From NCBI GenBank assembly GCA_015056085.1, contig SVHA01000001.1, positions 248,001-312,000 of the forward strand: a stretch of DNA of 64,000 nt, read 5' to 3'. Origin of the DNA: Clostridiales bacterium (GTDB taxonomy: Bacteria > Bacillota > Clostridia > Christensenellales > Aristaeellaceae). This document shows, piece after piece, positions 7,132-28,856 of this stretch. Position 1 is the first letter of the stretch; each line of letters starts with the position of its first letter. The notes beneath the pieces are model-generated. The model searched no databases, was not told where the DNA came from, and was given only the letters and a program-made list of their open reading frames with translations. The position numbers and the translations under genes were made by a program.

Positions 7132-9663
7132 TTATGCCGTTTCGATGGCGTTGGCTTCGTGGAGTTTCAGATATTCCACGGCCCATTCACGCATCTTGTA
7201 CTTCTGAATCTTGCCAGCGGCGTTCATGGGGAAGCCGTCCACAAAGGCGACGTAGCGGGGCGTCTTGTGCTTTGCCATGTGGGTCAGCACATATTCCTTC
7301 ATTTCCGCCTCGGTGCTTTCTTCGCCCTCCCGCAGGATGACGCAGGCCATGATTTCCTCACCGTACTGCTTGTCCGGCACGCCGATCACCTGCACGTCCT
7401 TCACCTTGGGGTGGGTGTAGAGAAAGTCCTCGATCTCCTTGGGATAGATATTCTCGCCGCCGCGGATGATCATGTCCTTGATACGTCCGGTGATCTTGTA
7501 ATAGCCGTTTTCATCCCTGCGGGAAAGGTCGCCGGTGTGCAGCCAGCCTTCGCTGTCAATGGCAGCGGCGGTGGCTTCGGGCATCTTATAGTAGCCCTTC
7601 ATGATGTTATAGCCCCTTGCGACAAACTCGCCGTCCACGCCATCGGGCACAGGCTGATTCGTCTCGGGGTCCACAATACGGCATTCCACGCCGAAAATCG
7701 CCTGACCGACAGTGTTCACACGGGCTTCAATGGAATCGGAGGTCTTGGACATGGTGGTGGCGGGACTGGCTTCCGTCTGACCGTAGGTAATGCAGATTTC
7801 ATCCATGTGCATCTTTTGGATGACCTCTTCCATCACCTTGATGGGACAGGGGCTGCCCGCCATGATGCCAGTACGCATATGAGAGAAATCCGTCTTTTCA
7901 AAGTCTTCATGGCCCAGCATGGCGATGAACATGGTAGGCACACCATGGAAGCAGGTGATTTTTTCCTGATTGATACAGGCGAGGCCCCTGCGGGGAGAGA
8001 ACGCCGGGATGGGGCTCATGGTTACGCCGTGGGTCATGGAGGCGGTCATGGCCAGCACCATGCCGAAGCAGTGGAACATGGGCACCTGGATCATCATGCG
8101 GTCCGCAGTGGACAAATCCATGCAGTCGCCGATGGCCTTGCCGTTGTTGACCACGTTGTAGTGGGTCAGCATGACGCCCTTGGGGAAGCCGGTGGTGCCG
8201 GAAGTGTACTGCATATTGCACACGTCATGCTTGCTGATGGCATTGGCACGGCGAGCGACTTCTTCATAAGGCACACGGTCGGCAAAGGAGAGGGCCTGAT
8301 CCCAGGAAAGGCAGCCAGGCTGCTGGCTTTCCACAGTGACGATGCGCCTGAGGAAGGGGAACTTGCGGGTGTGCAGGGGCGCCATGGGATCGTGATCCGC
8401 CAGTTCGGGGCACAGTTCCTTCATGATGCCCACATAGTCGCTGTCTTTATAGCCGTCCACCATCACCAGCGTGTGGGTATCGCTCTGGCGCAGGAGGTAT
8501 TCAGCCTCGTGAATCTTGTAGGCGGTGTTCACCGTCACCAGCACGGCGCCGATTTTCACCGTTGCCCAGAAGGTAATGTACCACGCGGGAACATTGGTGG
8601 CCCAGATCGCCACATGGTCGCCGGGATTGACGCCCATGCCGATCAGCGCCCGGGCGAACTGATCCACATCATCCCGGAACTGGGAGTAGGTGCGGGTGTA
8701 ATCAAGGGTGGTATAGCGGAAGGCATACTGGTCGGGGAATTCCTCCACCATGCGGTCCAGCACCTGGGGGAAAGTCAGGTCGATGAGGTGATTCTTCGGC
8801 CAGACGTACTTGCCCGTCTTGCGGATGTTATCCTGCAGACGGCGGCTTTCCGCCGTGCCGGGCAGGAACTGCTCCATATAGTTGGCAAAGTGGGGGAACA
8901 CGATGCCGGCGCTTTCCAGATCGGGCGCATAGGCGCGCAGCCATTCCAGGCTGATATATCCTTCGTAGTTGATGGAATCCAGCGCACGTACCATCTGGGC
9001 CACAGGCAGATCGCCCTCGCCCATCATGCGATAGCGCACCTTGTCGCCTTCCATCACGGAATCCTTGATATGCACGTGTTTGATGTACATACCCAGATTC
9101 TGCACGGTGGTTTCCGGCTTTTCGTTCATGAACCGATAGGGGTGATGCATATCCCACAGGGCGCCCACGGAATCGGACTTGGTACGGATGAGCAGCTCAT
9201 GCAGGCGAGCGGTATCAGCATAGACGCCGTTGGTTTCCACCAGCAGCGTGACGCCCTTTTCCTCGGCAAAGGGCAGCACTTCCATCAGCGCAAACAGCAC
9301 CTGATCGTCATCCACAGGTCCTTCCACATCGGCGTTGCGGTCGCCCAGCAGGCGGATATACTTCGCCCCCAGGCGGCTGGCGAGGTGAATATACTCGATG
9401 ATCTCCGCCTTGGTTTCGGGCCAGGTTTCGGCGTCCTTCAGCACGCAGCCGGTGGACAGGCAGGGCACTTCCAGGTGCATCCGCTTCAGGGTCTGCACCG
9501 TCTGGTCGATGTACTTGTCGGTGAAGGGCTTGGCGTGAATGGAGAACATCTCGTTACGCAATCCGCGCACTTCAATGCCGCCAAAGCCAAAATCCTTAGC
9601 CATGGCATAAATGTCGGACCATTCAAAATCCGGGCAGCCCAGGGTGGAAAAACTCAGTTTCAT
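7132..9663 (-). CDS. Fusion: xylose isomerase-like TIM barrel + acyl-CoA synthetase
   Basis: 843 residues with two enzymes in one chain. Residues 1 to about 275 form a sugar-phosphate isomerase/epimerase-type TIM barrel (AP endonuclease 2 fold): LLVETNG, ALWDMHHPY, HVHIKDS and YISLEW supply the usual Glu/Asp/His metal ligands. From about 300 on it is an ANL-family AMP-dependent ligase: YTSGTTGFPKG (about 485), HTGDL, GRIKDMIIRGGENIYP and the catalytic Lys in NAAGKIQK (about 816), closest in look to short/medium-chain acyl-CoA synthetases. ATG 9663 follows AGGAGG. It is led by its own promoter and a T-box leader (see 9706-10001), which is unexpected for such an enzyme. Substrates are unknown; an aryl or branched-chain acid is possible. 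Confidence 0.88.
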   Translation of the reverse strand: MKLSFSTLGCPDFEWSDIYAMAKDFGFGGIEVRGLRNEMFSIHAKPFTDKYIDQTVQTLKRMHLEVPCLSTGCVLKDAETWPETKAEIIEYIHLASRLGAKYIRLLGDRNADVEGPVDDDQVLFALMEVLPFAEEKGVTLLVETNGVYADTARLHELLIRTKSDSVGALWDMHHPYRFMNEKPETTVQNLGMYIKHVHIKDSVMEGDKVRYRMMGEGDLPVAQMVRALDSINYEGYISLEWLRAYAPDLESAGIVFPHFANYMEQFLPGTAESRRLQDNIRKTGKYVWPKNHLIDLTFPQVLDRMVEEFPDQYAFRYTTLDYTRTYSQFRDDVDQFARALIGMGVNPGDHVAIWATNVPAWYITFWATVKIGAVLVTVNTAYKIHEAEYLLRQSDTHTLVMVDGYKDSDYVGIMKELCPELADHDPMAPLHTRKFPFLRRIVTVESQQPGCLSWDQALSFADRVPYEEVARRANAISKHDVCNMQYTSGTTGFPKGVMLTHYNVVNNGKAIGDCMDLSTADRMMIQVPMFHCFGMVLAMTASMTHGVTMSPIPAFSPRRGLACINQEKITCFHGVPTMFIAMLGHEDFEKTDFSHMRTGIMAGSPCPIKVMEEVIQKMHMDEICITYGQTEASPATTMSKTSDSIEARVNTVGQAIFGVECRIVDPETNQPVPDGVDGEFVARGYNIMKGYYKMPEATAAAIDSEGWLHTGDLSRRDENGYYKITGRIKDMIIRGGENIYPKEIEDFLYTHPKVKDVQVIGVPDKQYGEEIMACVILREGEESTEAEMKEYVLTHMAKHKTPRYVAFVDGFPMNAAGKIQKYKMREWAVEYLKLHEANAIETA

Positions 9664-9705
9664 GGTATGACCTCCTCTTGTGCCAGTGCGGAAACATCAG
9701 GCAAC

Positions 9706-9756
9706 AAAAAATGCCTCCATCTCCGCAAACCCATATTGCTTGCAAGAGACGAAAGC
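9706..9756 (-). terminator. T-box regulated terminator
   Basis: On the minus strand GCTTTCGTCTC pairs with GAGATGGAGGC (several G-T pairs), extended inward by GCAA/TTTGC after a bulge, and is followed by ATTTTTT. It lies between the T-box core and the ribosome site of the fusion gene. Confidence 0.82.
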
Positions 9757-10001
9757 GACATCGGACAAATCCGTTCTTCTTCCGCGGTACCACTCTTGTT
9801 GACGGCTCATGCCGCCCGCTCCGGCATCCTGAAAAATGCCTCTCCCTCTCACGGTGGAATCCGTCCGGCTTTACCGGGATGCAAGCATCCTTTGAGCCGA
9901 CCGCTCGGAGGCCAGTACCGATGGGTATCCCCGCCTGCTCGCACCACCGCAGGCTCTCTGATGGCGGACACGTCACCGTTTCTCCCCGTCTTGGCGTTTA
10001 T
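9706..10001 (-). promoter_or_regulatory. T-box riboswitch leader before the TIM-barrel/acyl-CoA ligase fusion
   Basis: On the minus strand the T-box core GAGTGGTACCGCGG lies at 9782-9796. Upstream is a stem I distal part typical of T-boxes: an AGAGA bulge followed by GCCTGC, a ten-base loop and GCAGGC, then GAGC after the specifier region. The bulge UGGU would pair with a tRNA ending ACCA, that is discriminator A. The specifier is not certain: TAC (9916-9918, Tyr) and the overlapping ACT (Thr) both lie in the loop; the discriminator rules against Trp. Downstream is the terminator at 9706-9756. Together they form a transcription attenuator reading charged versus uncharged tRNA. Confidence 0.85.
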
Positions 10002-10007
10002 GGGAGT

Positions 10008-10036
10008 ATATTACCATTTCACTTCAATGCTGTCAA
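10008..10036 (-). promoter_or_regulatory. Strong extended -10 promoter for the T-box leader
   Basis: Minus strand TTGACA (10031-10036), 17-base spacer, TAATAT (10008-10013) with TGG in front. It lies 40 bases past the murA stop, so the fusion is transcribed separately from murA. Confidence 0.85.
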
Positions 10037-10076
10037 GGTCGTGATTGTATTTTTCTTGTACGATTTCACAGGTTTT

Positions 10077-11345
10077 TCAGCCTCTGACTTCCTCTTCTGG
10101 CAGGGTGATTTCCTCAACCTGCGCTCCCAGAGACCTGAGCATTGCCGGCAGGTTTTCGTACCCTCTTGCGATGTGCCCATAAGGGTCAGAGAGCAGCGTC
10201 TCCCCTTCCGCCAGCATCCCCGCCAGCATCAGCGCGGCGCCGCCCCGTAGATCGGGTGAAGTCACCGGCGCACCCGCCAGAGGTCTGCCGCCCTCCACCA
10301 GCGCGATTCTGTCCTCGATGCGGATATTCGCTCCCAGGCGGGCCATTTCTCTGGCGTGCATGAAACGGTTCTCAAAGATGGTTTCCAGGAACACGCTCGT
10401 CCCTTTCAGCCCCAGCGACAGCGCCATCAGCGGCGCCTGCAGATCAGTGGGAAAGCCGGGAAAAGCCAGCGTCCTCACATGGACTGGCTCTCTGGCCCTG
10501 CCGGACAGGCGCAGTCCGGCGCTGTCCTCGTGGAGCACAACTCCCGTTTCCGTCAGTTTGTGGAGCATCGCCCTGAGATGTTCCGGCCTGGCACCTCTGA
10601 TGAGCACGCTGCCTTCCGTCATGGCGGAGGCACACAGAATCGTACCCGCTTCGATTCGGTCGGGGATGGGCCGATAGGTGCAGCCGTGGAGTTCCTTCTG
10701 ACCCTCAATGGTGATGGTTCCCGTGCCGCCTCCTGTGATGCGGGCACCCATTTCGTTCAGGCAGGTGCAAAGATCCACGATTTCCGGCTCTTTGGCGGCG
10801 TTCTCGATTCTCGTGGATCCCTTGGCAAGCACCGCCGCCAGCAGAATGTTCTCGGTGGCGCCGACGCTGGGGAAATCAAGATACACGTTCCCGCCGGTCA
10901 GTTCCCCCTGAAGCGTCACAGAGCCCGGCGTGGTGGTGGCCTGGGCGCCCAGCGCCTGCATCCCCCGGATGTGCAGGTCAATGGGTCTTTGGCCGATGGC
11001 GCAGCCGCCCGGCAAGGCCACCCGGGCATACCCGGTACGGGCCAGCAGCGGACCCATCACCAGCACTGACGCCCGCATACGGCTCAATAGCGTTTCAGAA
11101 TGGGGGGACACCGGCTCATCCGACCACAGGGTCAATTCCGGGCCATTCCTGCGGACATTCACGCCACATTCGGAGAGAATCTCCACCAGCGTTTCCACGT
11201 CTTTGAGCACCGGCACCCGCTCGATGGTCATGGGCTCCCTCGTCAACAGAGAGGCGCACATCAGCGGCAGCACGGCATTTTTCGCCGAATGAACCGTCAC
11301 TTCCCCCTGAAGCCGCTCACAGTGGCGGATGCGATAGGTCGCCAT
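10077..11345 (-). CDS. murA: UDP-N-acetylglucosamine 1-carboxyvinyltransferase MurA
   Basis: Cytoplasmic EPT-family enzyme that transfers enolpyruvate from PEP to UDP-GlcNAc, the first committed step of peptidoglycan synthesis. 422 residues, full length. Lys22-Asn23 in SAKNA and the catalytic Cys115 in LPGGCAIGQRP are present at the canonical positions, so fosfomycin sensitivity at the Cys is expected. ATG 11345 is chosen because GGGGG lies 5 bases upstream. No clear terminator separates it from the T-box promoter downstream. A second murA copy elsewhere is possible, as in many Firmicutes. Confidence 0.95.
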   Translation of the reverse strand: MATYRIRHCERLQGEVTVHSAKNAVLPLMCASLLTREPMTIERVPVLKDVETLVEILSECGVNVRRNGPELTLWSDEPVSPHSETLLSRMRASVLVMGPLLARTGYARVALPGGCAIGQRPIDLHIRGMQALGAQATTTPGSVTLQGELTGGNVYLDFPSVGATENILLAAVLAKGSTRIENAAKEPEIVDLCTCLNEMGARITGGGTGTITIEGQKELHGCTYRPIPDRIEAGTILCASAMTEGSVLIRGARPEHLRAMLHKLTETGVVLHEDSAGLRLSGRAREPVHVRTLAFPGFPTDLQAPLMALSLGLKGTSVFLETIFENRFMHAREMARLGANIRIEDRIALVEGGRPLAGAPVTSPDLRGGAALMLAGMLAEGETLLSDPYGHIARGYENLPAMLRSLGAQVEEITLPEEEVRG

Positions 11346-11466
11346 GCCATGCCCCCTTTTTTGATGGGTTTGCCCATGCATTCATGTCCTCATCGTTCCC
11401 CGAAAAGCGAAAGATGATACGCAGGAATTTCAGCATGATTTTTCCCATCAGAACGGTCGCATCTCC

Positions 11467-11495
11467 TTGACTTTTGGCGCATTTTTCTGCATAAT
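11467..11495 (+). promoter_or_regulatory. Promoter for the long leader of the DUF512 operon
   Basis: TTGACT (11467-11472), 17-base spacer, CATAAT (11490-11495). The transcript would begin near 11502, giving a leader of about 335 bases before the DUF512 gene. Between murA and this promoter (11346-11466) I see nothing recognisable. Confidence 0.65.
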
Positions 11496-11588
11496 AAATA
11501 AGATATGATGCGCAAGTATGCTCATATCAGTCTCTCGTAAAAAGTTCGGGCATTCAGTGCAGTAACTCGCCGTCAGCAGACATAAAAT

Positions 11589-11672
11589 CGAAAACTGACG
11601 AGCCCCTTCGGGACGATTATACGGTGCGAAGCCCCCTGTGCGTCAGTTTTCGTGCGATTTCGTAAGAAATCG
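11589..11672 (+). repeat. Two hairpins in the DUF512 leader
   Basis: A perfect 12-base inverted repeat CGAAAACTGACG (11589-11600) / CGTCAGTTTTCG (11641-11652) encloses 40 bases. Directly after it comes CGATTTC-GTAA-GAAATCG (11655-11672), a seven-pair hairpin with a GTAA tetraloop. No known riboswitch core was recognised in it; it may be a structured leader or small RNA. Confidence 0.6.
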
Positions 11673-11679
11673 TTCCCTT

Positions 11680-11763
11680 ACACGGAGGAACGCCCGTCAG
11701 GGCTGCTTGCAGCCCTGACAGTGACGAAGTGCAAAACTCGAAAAGTACCTTCAGCACTTTTCC
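11680..11763 (+). repeat. Palindromic intergenic repeat, copy A
   Basis: A 24-base palindrome (11696-11719, arms GTCAGGGCTGC/GCAGCCCTGAC around TT) is followed by GTGACG-AGTGCAAAACTC and then a small hairpin GAAAAGT/ACTTTTC. The same order, inverted, occurs at 19382-19468, with few mismatches over about 65 bases. No coding function seen. Confidence 0.75.
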
Positions 11764-11836
11764 GAAACGCTGTGATGCCCATGTATGCGCATCTGTAAAT
11801 TGCGGTGGAAATCATCCATCAGAAAGGCGGGATTTG

Positions 11837-13138
11837 ATGCCCAGCGCCATCACCCATGTGCAGCCCGGTTCCATCGCTGACAGGCTCGGTCTCCAGCCCG
11901 GTGATGTGCTGATGGAGATTGCCGGCGAGGAAATCATCGACCAGATTGATTATCAGGCCCTGACGGCTTCCACCAAGTTCGATGTGGTCTATGCCCGCCA
12001 GAATAAAAAGCACACCGTGAAGGTTCGCAAGCAGGACTGGGAGCCTCTGGGCATCACGCTGGATCAGTCCATCGTGTCCAGCCCCCGCCCCTGCAGGAAT
12101 CACTGCATCTTCTGCTTCATCGATCAGATGCCCCCCGGTATGCGAAAGACGCTGTATGTCAAGGATGATGACTGGCGGCTGTCCCTGATGATGGGCAACT
12201 ACATTACCATGACCAACATCGACGATCAGGAGTTTGACCGCATCATCCGCAGGAAGGTCAGCCCGCTGTTTATCTCCGTCCACACCACCAACCCGGATTT
12301 GCGGGTGATGATGCTACGCAACCCCCGGGCGGGCGAAGTGATGGACAAGATGCAGACGCTAAAAGAAAAGGGCATCCGTTTCCACTGTCAGGTGGTGCTG
12401 TGCCCCGGGTGGAATGACGGTGAAGAGTTACTTCGGACGCTGGCAGACCTCAAAACCCTGCGCCCCGCCATTGAATCGGTAGCGCTGGTGCCCATTGGCC
12501 TGACCAAGTACCGGGACAACCTCCCCTACATCAAGCCCTATGACAAGGATATGGCCGCACAATTGCTGGACATGATTCGCCCCATGCAGGAAGCGTATCT
12601 TTCCGAACTGGGCACAAGGTTTGTGTTCCCCTCGGATGAATTCTACTGCCTCTCCGGGTACACGCTGCCCACGGATGAGGAATACGAGGACTATCCGCAG
12701 ATTGAAAACGGCGTGGGGATGCTTCGGATGTTCGAAACAGACCTCCAGTATGCCGTGGAAGACCTGCCTGCACCAGACGGCCCCCGGCAGCACGTCGTCA
12801 TCGCCTGCGGCACGTCCGTAGCGCCGTTCCTGCAGCAGATGGCGGACGAATATGCCCCGGATCACATCACCGTGACAGTGCAGCCCATCATCAACCGCTT
12901 CTTTGGGGAGACGGTCACTGTGTCGGGGCTGATCACCGGCGGCGATCTGGTGGAACAGTTGCAGGGCGTGAAAGCGGATAAAATCTGCATCGTGCGCAGC
13001 ATGATCCGTGCAGAAGGCGACCTTTTCCTGGATGATATGACCATTGACGAAGTGCGTCAGGCACTCCCCGCCACCCTGTGTATTGTGGAAAACACCGGCG
13101 AGGGATTCTGGCGCGCCATTTCCGGACAGGAGGAGTAA
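11837..13138 (+). CDS. DUF512 radical SAM protein with PDZ-like N-terminus
   Basis: 433 residues. Residues 1-65 look like a PDZ-type module (PGSIADRLGLQPGDVLMEI); a CxxxCxxC iron-sulfur motif (C86, C90, C93 in PCRNHCIFCFIDQ) follows, then a radical-SAM-like barrel and the C-terminal DUF512 region with GVGMLRMF. The family (TIGR03279-like) has no established reaction. ATG 11837 follows AAAGGCGG; the open frame extends upstream but into the palindromic repeat, without a ribosome site. It ends 3 bases before der, the common clostridial arrangement, suggesting a link to ribosome assembly. Confidence 0.9.
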   Translation: MPSAITHVQPGSIADRLGLQPGDVLMEIAGEEIIDQIDYQALTASTKFDVVYARQNKKHTVKVRKQDWEPLGITLDQSIVSSPRPCRNHCIFCFIDQMPPGMRKTLYVKDDDWRLSLMMGNYITMTNIDDQEFDRIIRRKVSPLFISVHTTNPDLRVMMLRNPRAGEVMDKMQTLKEKGIRFHCQVVLCPGWNDGEELLRTLADLKTLRPAIESVALVPIGLTKYRDNLPYIKPYDKDMAAQLLDMIRPMQEAYLSELGTRFVFPSDEFYCLSGYTLPTDEEYEDYPQIENGVGMLRMFETDLQYAVEDLPAPDGPRQHVVIACGTSVAPFLQQMADEYAPDHITVTVQPIINRFFGETVTVSGLITGGDLVEQLQGVKADKICIVRSMIRAEGDLFLDDMTIDEVRQALPATLCIVENTGEGFWRAISGQEE

Positions 13139-14479: not shown

Positions 14480-15082
14480 ATGATGTACCTTCCCTATGTG
14501 GCCATTGCCGTCATTGCCTATCTGATGGGCTCCTTTTCCACGGGCCTGCTGGTGGCGAAGATTCATCACGGCCCCAACCTTCGCCAGGTGGGCTCCAAGA
14601 ACACCGGCGCCAGCAACGTGTTGCGCACCATGGGCCTCAAAAGCGGCGCCATCACCTTCCTTGGGGATTTCCTCAAGGCGCTGCTGGCCTGCGTGATCGG
14701 CCTTGTCTGGATGGGTCACAAAGGCGTGCTGGTGGCGGGTCTGTTCGCTGTTATCGGACACAACTGGCCGGTGTACTATGGCTTCAAGGGCGGCAAAGGC
14801 GTAGCCAGCACCTGTGCGGTCATCCTGATGGGATTCTGGTGGCAGGCACTGATTTGCTACGGCGTCACCATTGGCCTCATCGCCAAAACGAAGTACATCT
14901 CCCTTGGCTCCATGACGCTGGCGGGGCTGTATGCGGTGCTGGTGACCATCACTGCCTGGGGCGACTGGATGGCCATCCTCTGGGCATGGTTGCTGGTGGC
15001 ACTGTGTGTGTGGCGCCACAGGGCGAATATTCGCCGCTTGCTGAACGGAACGGAAGCCAAAATCGGCCAGAAGGCCAAATAA
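14480..15082 (+). CDS. plsY: Glycerol-3-phosphate acyltransferase PlsY
   Basis: Integral membrane enzyme that acylates glycerol-3-phosphate at position 1 from acyl-phosphate, starting phospholipid synthesis. 200 residues with the family motifs GSxNTGASNVLR, GHNWPVYYGFKGGKGVA and several hydrophobic segments. AGGAGG lies 8 bases before the first of two adjacent ATGs. The der-plsY pairing is common in Firmicutes. The partner PlsX is not in the window. Confidence 0.95.
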   Translation: MMYLPYVAIAVIAYLMGSFSTGLLVAKIHHGPNLRQVGSKNTGASNVLRTMGLKSGAITFLGDFLKALLACVIGLVWMGHKGVLVAGLFAVIGHNWPVYYGFKGGKGVASTCAVILMGFWWQALICYGVTIGLIAKTKYISLGSMTLAGLYAVLVTITAWGDWMAILWAWLLVALCVWRHRANIRRLLNGTEAKIGQKAK

Positions 15083-15141: not shown

Positions 15142-16947
<1,806 letters not shown>

Positions 16948-26050: not shown

Positions 26051-26362
26051 TGTCAGCTTCATCTGATGCGATGACGGGAAGAGTACGTCCAAAGCGGGTT
26101 TCAAGAGAGTTTCCGTTTCGGTGCGAGGAAACAGCCCCATGGACCGAATTACACCCCTGAGCCATCCGCTGAACCGCTCTGAATGGTCAAATCCATCAGA
26201 CGCTCAGGCGGCATCCGGTGCGCCGGTTACAGCGCAGGGCATATATGCGATGCCCATGAGGGCCGGATGTTTCCGGCTGAACGGAAGTGGTACCGTGGCA
26301 ATTTCAACATGATTTGTCGCCTTCCCCGCAGGATGAATTTATCCTGCAGGGAAGGCTTTTTT
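26051..26362 (+). promoter_or_regulatory. T-box riboswitch, probably tyrosine-specific
   Basis: Stem I begins with GGGAAGAGTACGTCC (AGTA loop-E strand), has the AGAGAG bulge and TTTCC/GGAAA distal hairpin, and the specifier region GAATTACACCCCTGAGC. The codon TAC at 26150-26152, followed by A, reads Tyr. The T-box core AAGTGGTACCGTGG is at 26285-26298 with UGGU for a discriminator A, as in tRNA-Tyr. A strong terminator follows. Having tyrS two genes downstream supports the Tyr reading; TTA (Leu), one base earlier, is the alternative by frame of reading. Confidence 0.9.
26319..26362 (+). terminator. T-box regulated terminator
   Basis: Stem GCCTTCCC/GGGAAGGC continued by CAGGAT/ATCCTG around loop GAATTT, followed by TTTTTT. 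Ribosome site AAGGAGGT of the aminotransferase lies 26 bases downstream. Confidence 0.92.
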
Positions 26363-27626: not shown

Positions 27627-28856
27627 ATGCAGCACGTACTTGACACCCTTCGTGAACGCGGATTCCTCGCCCAGATGACCTTCGAAGACGAACTCTACGA
27701 GCAGCTCAAGGAGCCCACCACCTTCTACGTGGGCTTTGACCCCACCGCTGATTCCCTGCACATCGGCCATTACATTCCGATCATGGCCATGGCACATATG
27801 CAGAAGGCCGGCCACAAGCCCATCGCCCTGATGGGCGGCGGCACCGCCATGATCGGCGACCCCTCCGGCAAGACGGATATGCGCAAGATGATGACCGTCG
27901 AGACCATCGACGATAACGTGGCCGCCATCAAGAAGCAGATGAGCCGTTTCCTGGATTTCTCCGAGGGCAAGGCCATCATCGTCAACAACGGCGACTGGCT
28001 GCGCAACCTGAACTTCATCGAGTTCATGCGGGACATCGGCTCCATGTTCTCCGTCAACACCATGCTGCGTGCTGATTGCTACAAGGCCCGCATGGAATCG
28101 GAAAACGGTCTGTCCTTCCTGGAATTCACCTATATGCTCATGCAGAGCTATGACTTCCTGGAGCTGTTCCACCGTTACGGCTGCCGGCTGGAAATGGGCG
28201 GCAACGACCAGTGGAGCAATATGCTGGGCGGTGCTGATCTGGTGCGCCGCAAGGATCACGAGAAGGCCTTCGCCTGCACTTTCCAGCTGCTGCTGACCCA
28301 CGACGGGAAGAAGATGGGCAAGACGGAAAAGGGCGCCCTGTGGCTGGATCCCAACAAGTGCTCTCCCTTTGATTTCTACCAGTACTGGCGCAATGTGGAC
28401 GACAAGGACGTGGAAAAGTGCCTGGGCCTGCTGACCTTCCTGCCCATGGACGAAGTGCGCCGCCTGGGTGCACTGGAAGGCAGCGAAATCAACGAAGCCA
28501 AGAAGGTTCTGGCCTTTGAAGTGACCAAGCTGGTGCACGGCGAAGAGGAAGCGCAGAAGGCCGCAGAGGCCGCTCTGGCCTTGTTTGCCGGCGGCATGAA
28601 TGCCGCCAACGTGCCCACCTTTGAGATTTCCGCCGCTGATCTTGCCAATGACGCCCGTGTGACCACCATGCTGGTGGCTTCCGGCCTGTGCAAGAGCCAG
28701 TCCGACGCCCGCAATCAGATCAAGGCCGGCGCCGTGACCCTGGCAGATGAAAAGGTCACCGACATGATGGCCACCATCGACGCCGCCATGTTCGGCGAAG
28801 AAGGCGTCATGCTGCAGAAGGGCAAGAAGGGCTTCCGCCGTCTGATGCTCAAATGA
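27627..28856 (+). CDS. tyrS: Tyrosyl-tRNA synthetase
   Basis: Class I aminoacyl-tRNA synthetase, 409 residues, charging tRNA-Tyr. HIGH at 45-48, [14 protein letters not shown], QPxD-region [11 protein letters not shown], the KMSKS-equivalent KKMGKT, and a C-terminal S4 RNA-binding domain ([18 protein letters not shown]). Start follows AAAGGAGC. Lies 42 bases past the aminotransferase without a terminator, so it is under the same T-box. Its last four bases overlap the next start (ATGA). Confidence 0.97.

Follow-up and report, generated by a model that had tools for sequence, protein, structure and literature searches.

In the window (the whole stretch of DNA analyzed here, 64,000 nucleotides of contig SVHA01000001.1 from a Clostridiales bacterium), the leader ahead of a gene that fuses a TIM barrel to an acyl-CoA ligase was confirmed to be a real T-box, part of a complete transcription unit (9705-10036, minus strand). 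Its specifier reads as leucine. We judge it likely that this leucine-specific, transcription-terminating T-box induces an isovaleryl-CoA synthetase, which would serve the reductive carboxylation of isovalerate to leucine. The arrangement is an ordinary, known kind of RNA switch on an unexpected, new kind of target. An initial annotation of this DNA had proposed an acid-activating ligase linked to amino acid supply; we accept this proposal, with leucine as the amino acid.

Architecture and specifier of the T-box leader

The features of the leader, of the gene that it precedes, and of the second T-box in the window are as follows (window positions).

10008..10036, minus strand: sigma-70-type promoter TTGACA-17-TAATAT with TG before the -10 element
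9742..10001, minus strand: T-box leader, RF00230, from a covariance model match
9937..9959, minus strand: apical part of stem I, with the AGAGAG bulge (9959-9954) and the GGTG distal-loop motif
9913..9915, minus strand: specifier codon CUG (leucine), from the rule reading and orthologue leaders
9742..9798, minus strand: antiterminator, with the T-box core GTGGTACCGCG at 9793-9783
9705..9756, minus strand: intrinsic terminator, hairpin 9756-9713 plus U tract 9712-9705, exclusive with the antiterminator
9671..9678, minus strand: Shine-Dalgarno sequence upstream of the ATG at 9663
7132..9663, minus strand: TIM-barrel/acyl-CoA ligase fusion, 843 aa, proposed isovaleryl-CoA synthetase
8854..9663, minus strand: xylose-isomerase-like TIM barrel, PF01261, residues 1-270
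7210..8757, minus strand: AMP-forming acyl-CoA ligase domains, PF00501/PF13193, residues 303-818
26062..26327, plus strand: second T-box, specifier UAC (tyrosine), RF00230, 74.6 bits
26370-27584, plus strand: PLP aminotransferase, MocR-related, behind the tyrosine T-box
27627-28856, plus strand: tyrS, after the PLP aminotransferase

A search of a 551-base stretch with RF00230 matched 9742-10001 of the minus strand over the full length of the model (model positions 1-219; 78.4 bits, E 2.4e-17), and the search of the whole window gave the same leader 72.7 bits (E 8.2e-14). A default Rfam scan at gathering returned no RF00230 match for the window leader because its score falls short of the gathering threshold, 93. 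Of the 13 T-boxes in the window's genome, 11 score below that threshold, this leader among them, and the targets of the other ten are synthetase or transport genes. The initial annotation had described a T-box with stem I features, a consensus promoter, a core, and a terminator, placed just before the ribosome site of the gene; all of these elements were recovered at the positions given above, and the RF00230 search that it had suggested did yield a match, though one below the gathering score.

The terminator hairpin 9756-9713 has a folding energy of -24.7 kcal/mol (z -3.6), with none of 200 shuffles equaling it, and is not among the calls of a simple consensus terminator scan. The antiterminator alone folded no better than shuffles (z -0.9, 32/200), and the single-sequence fold of the whole leader was not significant (z -1.3). 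The arm 9756-9742 is common to both folds, being the 3' side of the antiterminator and the 5' arm of the terminator. An alignment of ten close leaders, 8 of them from genomes of the window's genus and the other two from L066 and L068, shows the terminator stem's core conserved in 10/10; at 16 of 78 predicted pairs both bases change in at least one sequence.

The specifier was read as the codon ending six bases before the GAGC that closes stem I, and this rule gave CUG, leucine, for the window leader. The initial annotation had named TAC, which overlaps CTG by one base, and this part of its account did not stand. ACTGG is identical in all ten close leaders; the first base of TAC is not, the triplet being CAC in the relative L020. 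All 36 GTDB orthologue leaders with a core have CTC (29) or CTG (7) at the same distance from the closing motif; a blind script accounted for 26 CTC and 4 CTG of these readings and anchored the other 6 wrongly, and the anchor of L088 is doubtful. Since the codon's neighbors on both sides vary across these leaders, no other frame is common to them. A specifier for one amino acid is thus conserved in 10/10 close leaders and 36/36 GTDB loci with a core, and it points to leucine because CTG or the synonymous CTC is kept while TAC is not. TAC, ACT, and TGG were discarded as specifiers, only CTN being kept once the CTC leaders were compared. Other codons called by a cruder script in leaders such as L094, L106, L121, and L134 were due to wrong anchoring and were resolved by eye and by the reading against the closing motif.

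The rule was checked on 11 other T-boxes of the window's genome with a known target. The blind script read 6 of them: Met (metG), Tyr (aminotransferase-tyrS), Phe (pheS), and Leu (leuS), these four matching their targets, then Asp (hisS) and CGC (valS). The valS leader has GTC two bases upstream of the CGC, and Asp ahead of hisS is presumably what a hisS-aspS operon would show. At the remaining five (TrpX-like transporter, trpS, serS, proS, and thrS) the expected codon was present by eye, in readings that were not blind because the target gene was known beforehand. A search confined to long tRNAs found tRNA-Leu with CAG (two copies) and GAG anticodons, among others, in the window's genome.

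The second T-box, which the initial annotation had called a better-supported tyrosine T-box, is real and carries UAC, but at 74.6 bits it is not clearly better supported than the leader described here; the PLP aminotransferase behind it may make tyrosine. Elsewhere in the window, a weak AsrC RNA match (15159-15228, minus strand; 28 bits against a cut-off of 111) lies antisense to the start of a LepA-like gene, as judged by eye, and is probably conserved coding sequence rather than RNA.

Distribution of the leader, the fusion gene, and the pathway genes

The fusion is present in 23 of 60 related genomes, truncated at contig ends in G003 and G021, and its upstream side was readable in 22 genomes. 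Among the matches listed, a T-box lies directly ahead of the fusion in 8 of the 22 readable genomes, and a T-box is followed by a LeuA-like gene and then the fusion in 10 of the 22; the specifiers of these 18 genomes, among the same matches, are CTG (8) and CTC (10). A pattern search found no T-box ahead of the fusion in G022, G045, G050, and G057. Within the genus of the window, 10 of 18 genomes have the fusion and 8 are without it; all 10 fusions have a T-box, 8 directly ahead and 2 before an intervening LeuA-like gene, among the matches listed. Among 80 GTDB orthologues, a T-box core within 520 nt upstream was found in 36 and not in 44; L064, L065, and L067 of this set are apparently the same genomes as G006, G012, and G014 of the related set. 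Relatives of the fusion in Ruminococcus flavefaciens are about 70% identical. A pattern search detected no T-box core ahead of the fusion in any of the four records of that name, which are among the 44, and for the fusion of this species L111 and L128 gave no Rfam T-box match at gathering, a threshold that the window's own T-box also misses. The cultured carriers Ruminococcus flavefaciens 007c and Neglectibacter sp. X58 each have the fusion and no T-box core. The comparison of orthologue leaders proposed in the initial annotation has two sides: the specifier is conserved and the leader is kept in all fusions of the genus, but the 44 GTDB orthologues show no core. The leader-fusion circuit is common, not universal.

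Three further leaders or flanking regions stood out. The fusion leader of L142 has a stem I with a Leu (CTC) specifier, and a ligase leader of L170 (G006:C51) has one with an Ile (ATC) specifier, in each case by eye and without a recognizable antiterminator core; read in this way, the two appear to be decaying or altered T-boxes. In L103, an azaaromatic (yjdF) riboswitch lies at 14760-14905, near the fusion orthologue.

The ligase domain of the fusion matched best to a general fatty-acid CoA ligase among the NCBIfam models, with a score below the cut-off of that model. Against NF047394 (MbcS) the fusion scored 166 bits, with a cut-off of 850, and it is therefore not MbcS. No close characterized relative of the ligase was found. 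In the TIM barrel, the metal-type residues E143, D171, H174, and E240 are invariant in 80 aligned sequences (79 of the 80 loci plus the window), and because they are kept throughout, the barrel may be an active enzyme. Upstream of the fusion, on its own strand, lies murA; an assignment as AroA, tied to aromatic synthesis, was considered and dropped. A 961-aa open frame (7159-10044, plus strand) runs antisense to the fusion gene and the leader and is probably a shadow of GC-rich codon use.

The window's genome (94.8% complete) lacks the canonical valine/leucine route. It gave no IlvC and no IlvD match, and its only protein of the aconitase family (LeuC superfamily) is an aconitate hydratase; two LeuA_dimer proteins remain, one of them with its RDGEQ motif intact. 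VorB is present (572 bits, cut-off 399), with matches to the Vor beta and gamma subunits below their cut-offs, and a branched-chain aminotransferase is over the cut-off with PRK13357 and ilvE_II. Across the 60 genomes, VorB passed the cut-off in 22 of the 23 that hold the fusion and in 14 of the 37 others (P value of 6e-6, with shared ancestry ignored); in an additional set of 50 fusion genomes, drawn from the 80 GTDB loci, it did so in 48. G026 has the fusion and the T-box and no VorB over the cut-off. IlvC was found in 3 of 23 fusion genomes (G006, G012, and G026) versus 19 of 37 others (P value of 0.003, shared ancestry again ignored), an avoidance that weakens to a P value of 0.09 among genomes at least 90% complete. 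A PF00920 (IlvD family) match was present in 9/23 fusion genomes versus 23/37 others, likewise with shared ancestry ignored.

Parallel ligases, proposed route to leucine, and rival readings

In L044-L047 and L051, a Leu T-box with the LeuA-like gene and the fusion shares a single stretch with Ile and Val T-boxes, ligases, and Vor genes. The stretch of L049 has Leu and Val T-boxes, and L048 has the same cluster without T-boxes. Specifiers in these clusters are CTC for Leu, ATC for Ile, and GTA or GTC for Val. Full family scans covered L045 and individual proteins from L047, L048, and L049, and the cluster members in other stretches were recognized by their first residues or by VorB matches. In the scans, the branched-chain aminotransferase and VorB were over the cut-off and MbcS was below it. 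The ligases of these clusters have HTH and cupin domains and match best to the MbcS model; the MbcS-like ligases score 433-488 with it, against a cut-off of 850. Ligases joined to an XRE-type helix-turn-helix and a cupin under Ile/Val T-boxes were seen at 10165-12432 and 12788-15073 of L045 and in L046 and L047; they look like an enzyme joined to an apparent regulator.

The 25 MbcS-like ligase open reading frames divide into 10 behind an Ile (ATC) T-box, 7 behind a Val one (GTA or GTC), and 8 for which no T-box was readable. Several candidate codons are present per ligase leader in this reading, and of the 17 codons ten were picked by script, four were first candidates, and three (L045 12788, L122, and L169) were read by eye. 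The Ile and Val labels cluster on the ligase tree (8 changes versus a shuffled mean of 13.1, 0/200), and neither group forms a single clade. The fusion is approximately 29 to 30% identical to the MbcS-like group. Ile/Val T-boxes were also considered for the MbcS-like genes of the window's genome itself and were rejected, no core being found for its two ligases. In the clade nearest the window, a fusion adjoining Vor is rare (L074 and L079 among 80 loci).

Also in the window's genome, L156 (G000:C23, 3010-8705, minus strand) has a Tyr T-box ahead of genes for a CoA ligase, a sodium/solute-symporter-like protein, IorA, and what by eye is probably IorB; IorA is over the cut-off and the symporter-like protein is below the cut-offs. 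L160 and L161 resemble this layout. To judge from the IorA of this cluster, the L156 ligase probably takes an aromatic acid, and L156 is a possible aromatic counterpart of the leucine finding.

The LeuA-derived protein lies before the fusion at 5543-6913 of L045 and likewise in L046-L050 and L056, under a Leu T-box except in L048. All 7 copies aligned lack RDGEQ and HxH, which we take to be motifs of LeuA, and keep the LeuA_dimer domain. With these motifs lost the protein is unlikely to be a synthase, and their loss together with retention of the leucine-binding domain suggests a leucine sensor.

The sequences themselves contain the T-box with its specifier and target gene, a Vor and an aminotransferase that co-occur with them, and, in this genome or its relatives, matching Ile, Val, and Tyr T-boxes ahead of other ligases. 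In the proposed mechanism, when leucine is scarce the anticodon of uncharged tRNA-Leu (CAG) would pair with the stem I specifier, CUG, and the CCA end of the tRNA would pair with the antiterminator, so that the terminator would be blocked and the fusion gene transcribed. Its product would convert isovalerate, a branched gut acid, to isovaleryl-CoA. The 2-oxoacid:ferredoxin oxidoreductase Vor would then reductively carboxylate isovaleryl-CoA to 4-methyl-2-oxopentanoate, from which a branched-chain aminotransferase would form leucine. Read-through that depends on the tRNA, isovalerate as the substrate, and the direction of flux are what we infer. In S. aureus, 2-methylbutyrate and isobutyrate are substrates of MbcS and isovalerate is a poor one (passage in PMC10026030), which would leave isovalerate for another ligase. 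The Ile/Val/Tyr pattern would require a separate isovalerate ligase under leucine control.

A leucine T-box could also govern a different product, with the TIM barrel acting on another acid or a sugar-like compound and the ligase activating the result in an undescribed leucine route. We consider this rather unlikely. The four invariant residues of the barrel in 80 sequences, a fusion ligase with no close characterized relative, and the LeuA-derived protein that separates the fusion from its Leu T-box in 10 of the 18 T-box-bearing related genomes (among the matches listed) all speak for it, and a barrel with invariant metal-type residues would be superfluous for plain activation of isovalerate. 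However, the co-occurrence of Vor and the parallel Ile/Val/Tyr ligases fit simple activation of a decarboxylated acid, and a LeuA-like protein that has lost RDGEQ and HxH in 7 copies is an unlikely synthase.

A T-box switches on when its amino acid is lacking. Induction would thus have the wrong sign for an enzyme of leucine breakdown, which is disfavored for this reason. Supply of iso-branched membrane lipids has a precedent in S. aureus, in which such acyl-CoA ligases feed branched-chain fatty acid synthesis (passage in PMC10026030), but lipid supply gives no reason for a separate tRNA signal per amino acid, and ligase types differ between the Ile, Val, Leu, and Tyr specifiers. That the enzyme serves lipids or breakdown, with the T-box as a leftover or an indirect signal, is in our judgment improbable. 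Activation of an aromatic acid under a tyrosine (UAC) specifier is scarcely credible. It draws on the overlap of TAC with CTG in the window and on the Tyr T-box, ligase, and IorA found elsewhere in the genome, yet it is already contradicted by the orthologue leaders, in which TAC is CAC (L020) or is missing at that place (CTC leaders), and the IorA-linked ligase is not the fusion but another protein, which shares 31% identity with it in the matched part and has a Tyr T-box of its own.

Activation of isovalerate under leucine control, the reading that we prefer, may belong to a larger set. In this set tRNA-Leu, -Ile, -Val, and -Tyr would each induce the ligase of their own acid (isovalerate, 2-methylbutyrate, isobutyrate, and 4-hydroxyphenylacetate, each one carboxylation below the amino acid), with Vor or Ior working reductively; the fusion would be the isovaleryl-CoA synthetase that the rumen pathway of 1962 calls for, and the LeuA-derived protein beside it in many relatives would be a dead enzyme that senses leucine. 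We think the chances slightly favor this broader account. The fusion is a candidate for the first enzyme with which rumen microbes would rebuild leucine from a fermentation waste product. If the account is true, each T-box specifier would be an internal tag for the amino acid that its ligase serves, and in many uncultured gut Clostridia a generic annotation as acyl-CoA synthetase could give way to a specific substrate assignment open to testing.

Comparison with known systems

Leucine-class T-boxes include that of the B. subtilis ilv-leu operon, with a CUC triplet (work cited in PMC2494555), and that of Geobacter leuA, with tRNA-Leu(GAG) (passage in PMC2700814). The leader described here resembles known Leu T-boxes (RF00230) in its stem I, specifier loop, AGAGAG and GGUG motifs, core-bearing antiterminator, exclusive terminator, and leucine codon. 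It differs from them in using CUG as the specifier, both in the window and in the closest relatives, and in having as its target an acyl-CoA ligase fusion, not a synthetase, a transporter, or an Ilv/Leu enzyme. A literature search of incomplete coverage found no report linking T-boxes to acyl-CoA ligases or 2-oxoacid oxidoreductases, and no gene for the ligase of the isovalerate-to-leucine conversion. In the main text of two T-box/regulon surveys, there is no mention of CoA, acyl, or ferredoxin (PMC2494555) or of CoA ligase, acyl-CoA, or ferredoxin (PMC3766115).

For ruminococci, branched volatile fatty acids act as growth factors, and in 1962 isovalerate was reported to be incorporated into leucine (Allison and co-workers, 1962 and 1966, cited in PMC7356843). 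The predicted reactions and the habitat agree with the isovalerate carboxylation pathway of 1962; VorB and a branched-chain aminotransferase are present in the window's genome, and relatives of the fusion occur in Ruminococcus flavefaciens. Unlike the old studies, which dealt with isovalerate incorporation and in the passages cited name no gene for the activating step, the present work proposes both a gene and its regulator. As recently as 2020, work on Prevotella bryantii called the step from branched acid to amino acid unproven and assumed an unspecific acetyl-CoA synthetase for activation (passage in PMC7709123).

The fusion is predicted to be, like S. aureus MbcS, a short branched acyl-CoA synthetase, and the Ile/Val T-box ligase that was scanned scores best with the MbcS model, below its cut-off. 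Unlike MbcS, for which isovalerate is a poor substrate (passage in PMC10026030), the fusion of the window has a TIM barrel, which stands in place of an HTH-cupin part. The system also shares components with Vor/Ior systems: VorB and IorA are over their cut-offs in the window's genome, and Vor lies in the same cluster in some relatives. Vor and Ior are usually described as acid-forming enzymes of amino acid fermentation; in contrast to that usual role, the reductive direction is predicted here.
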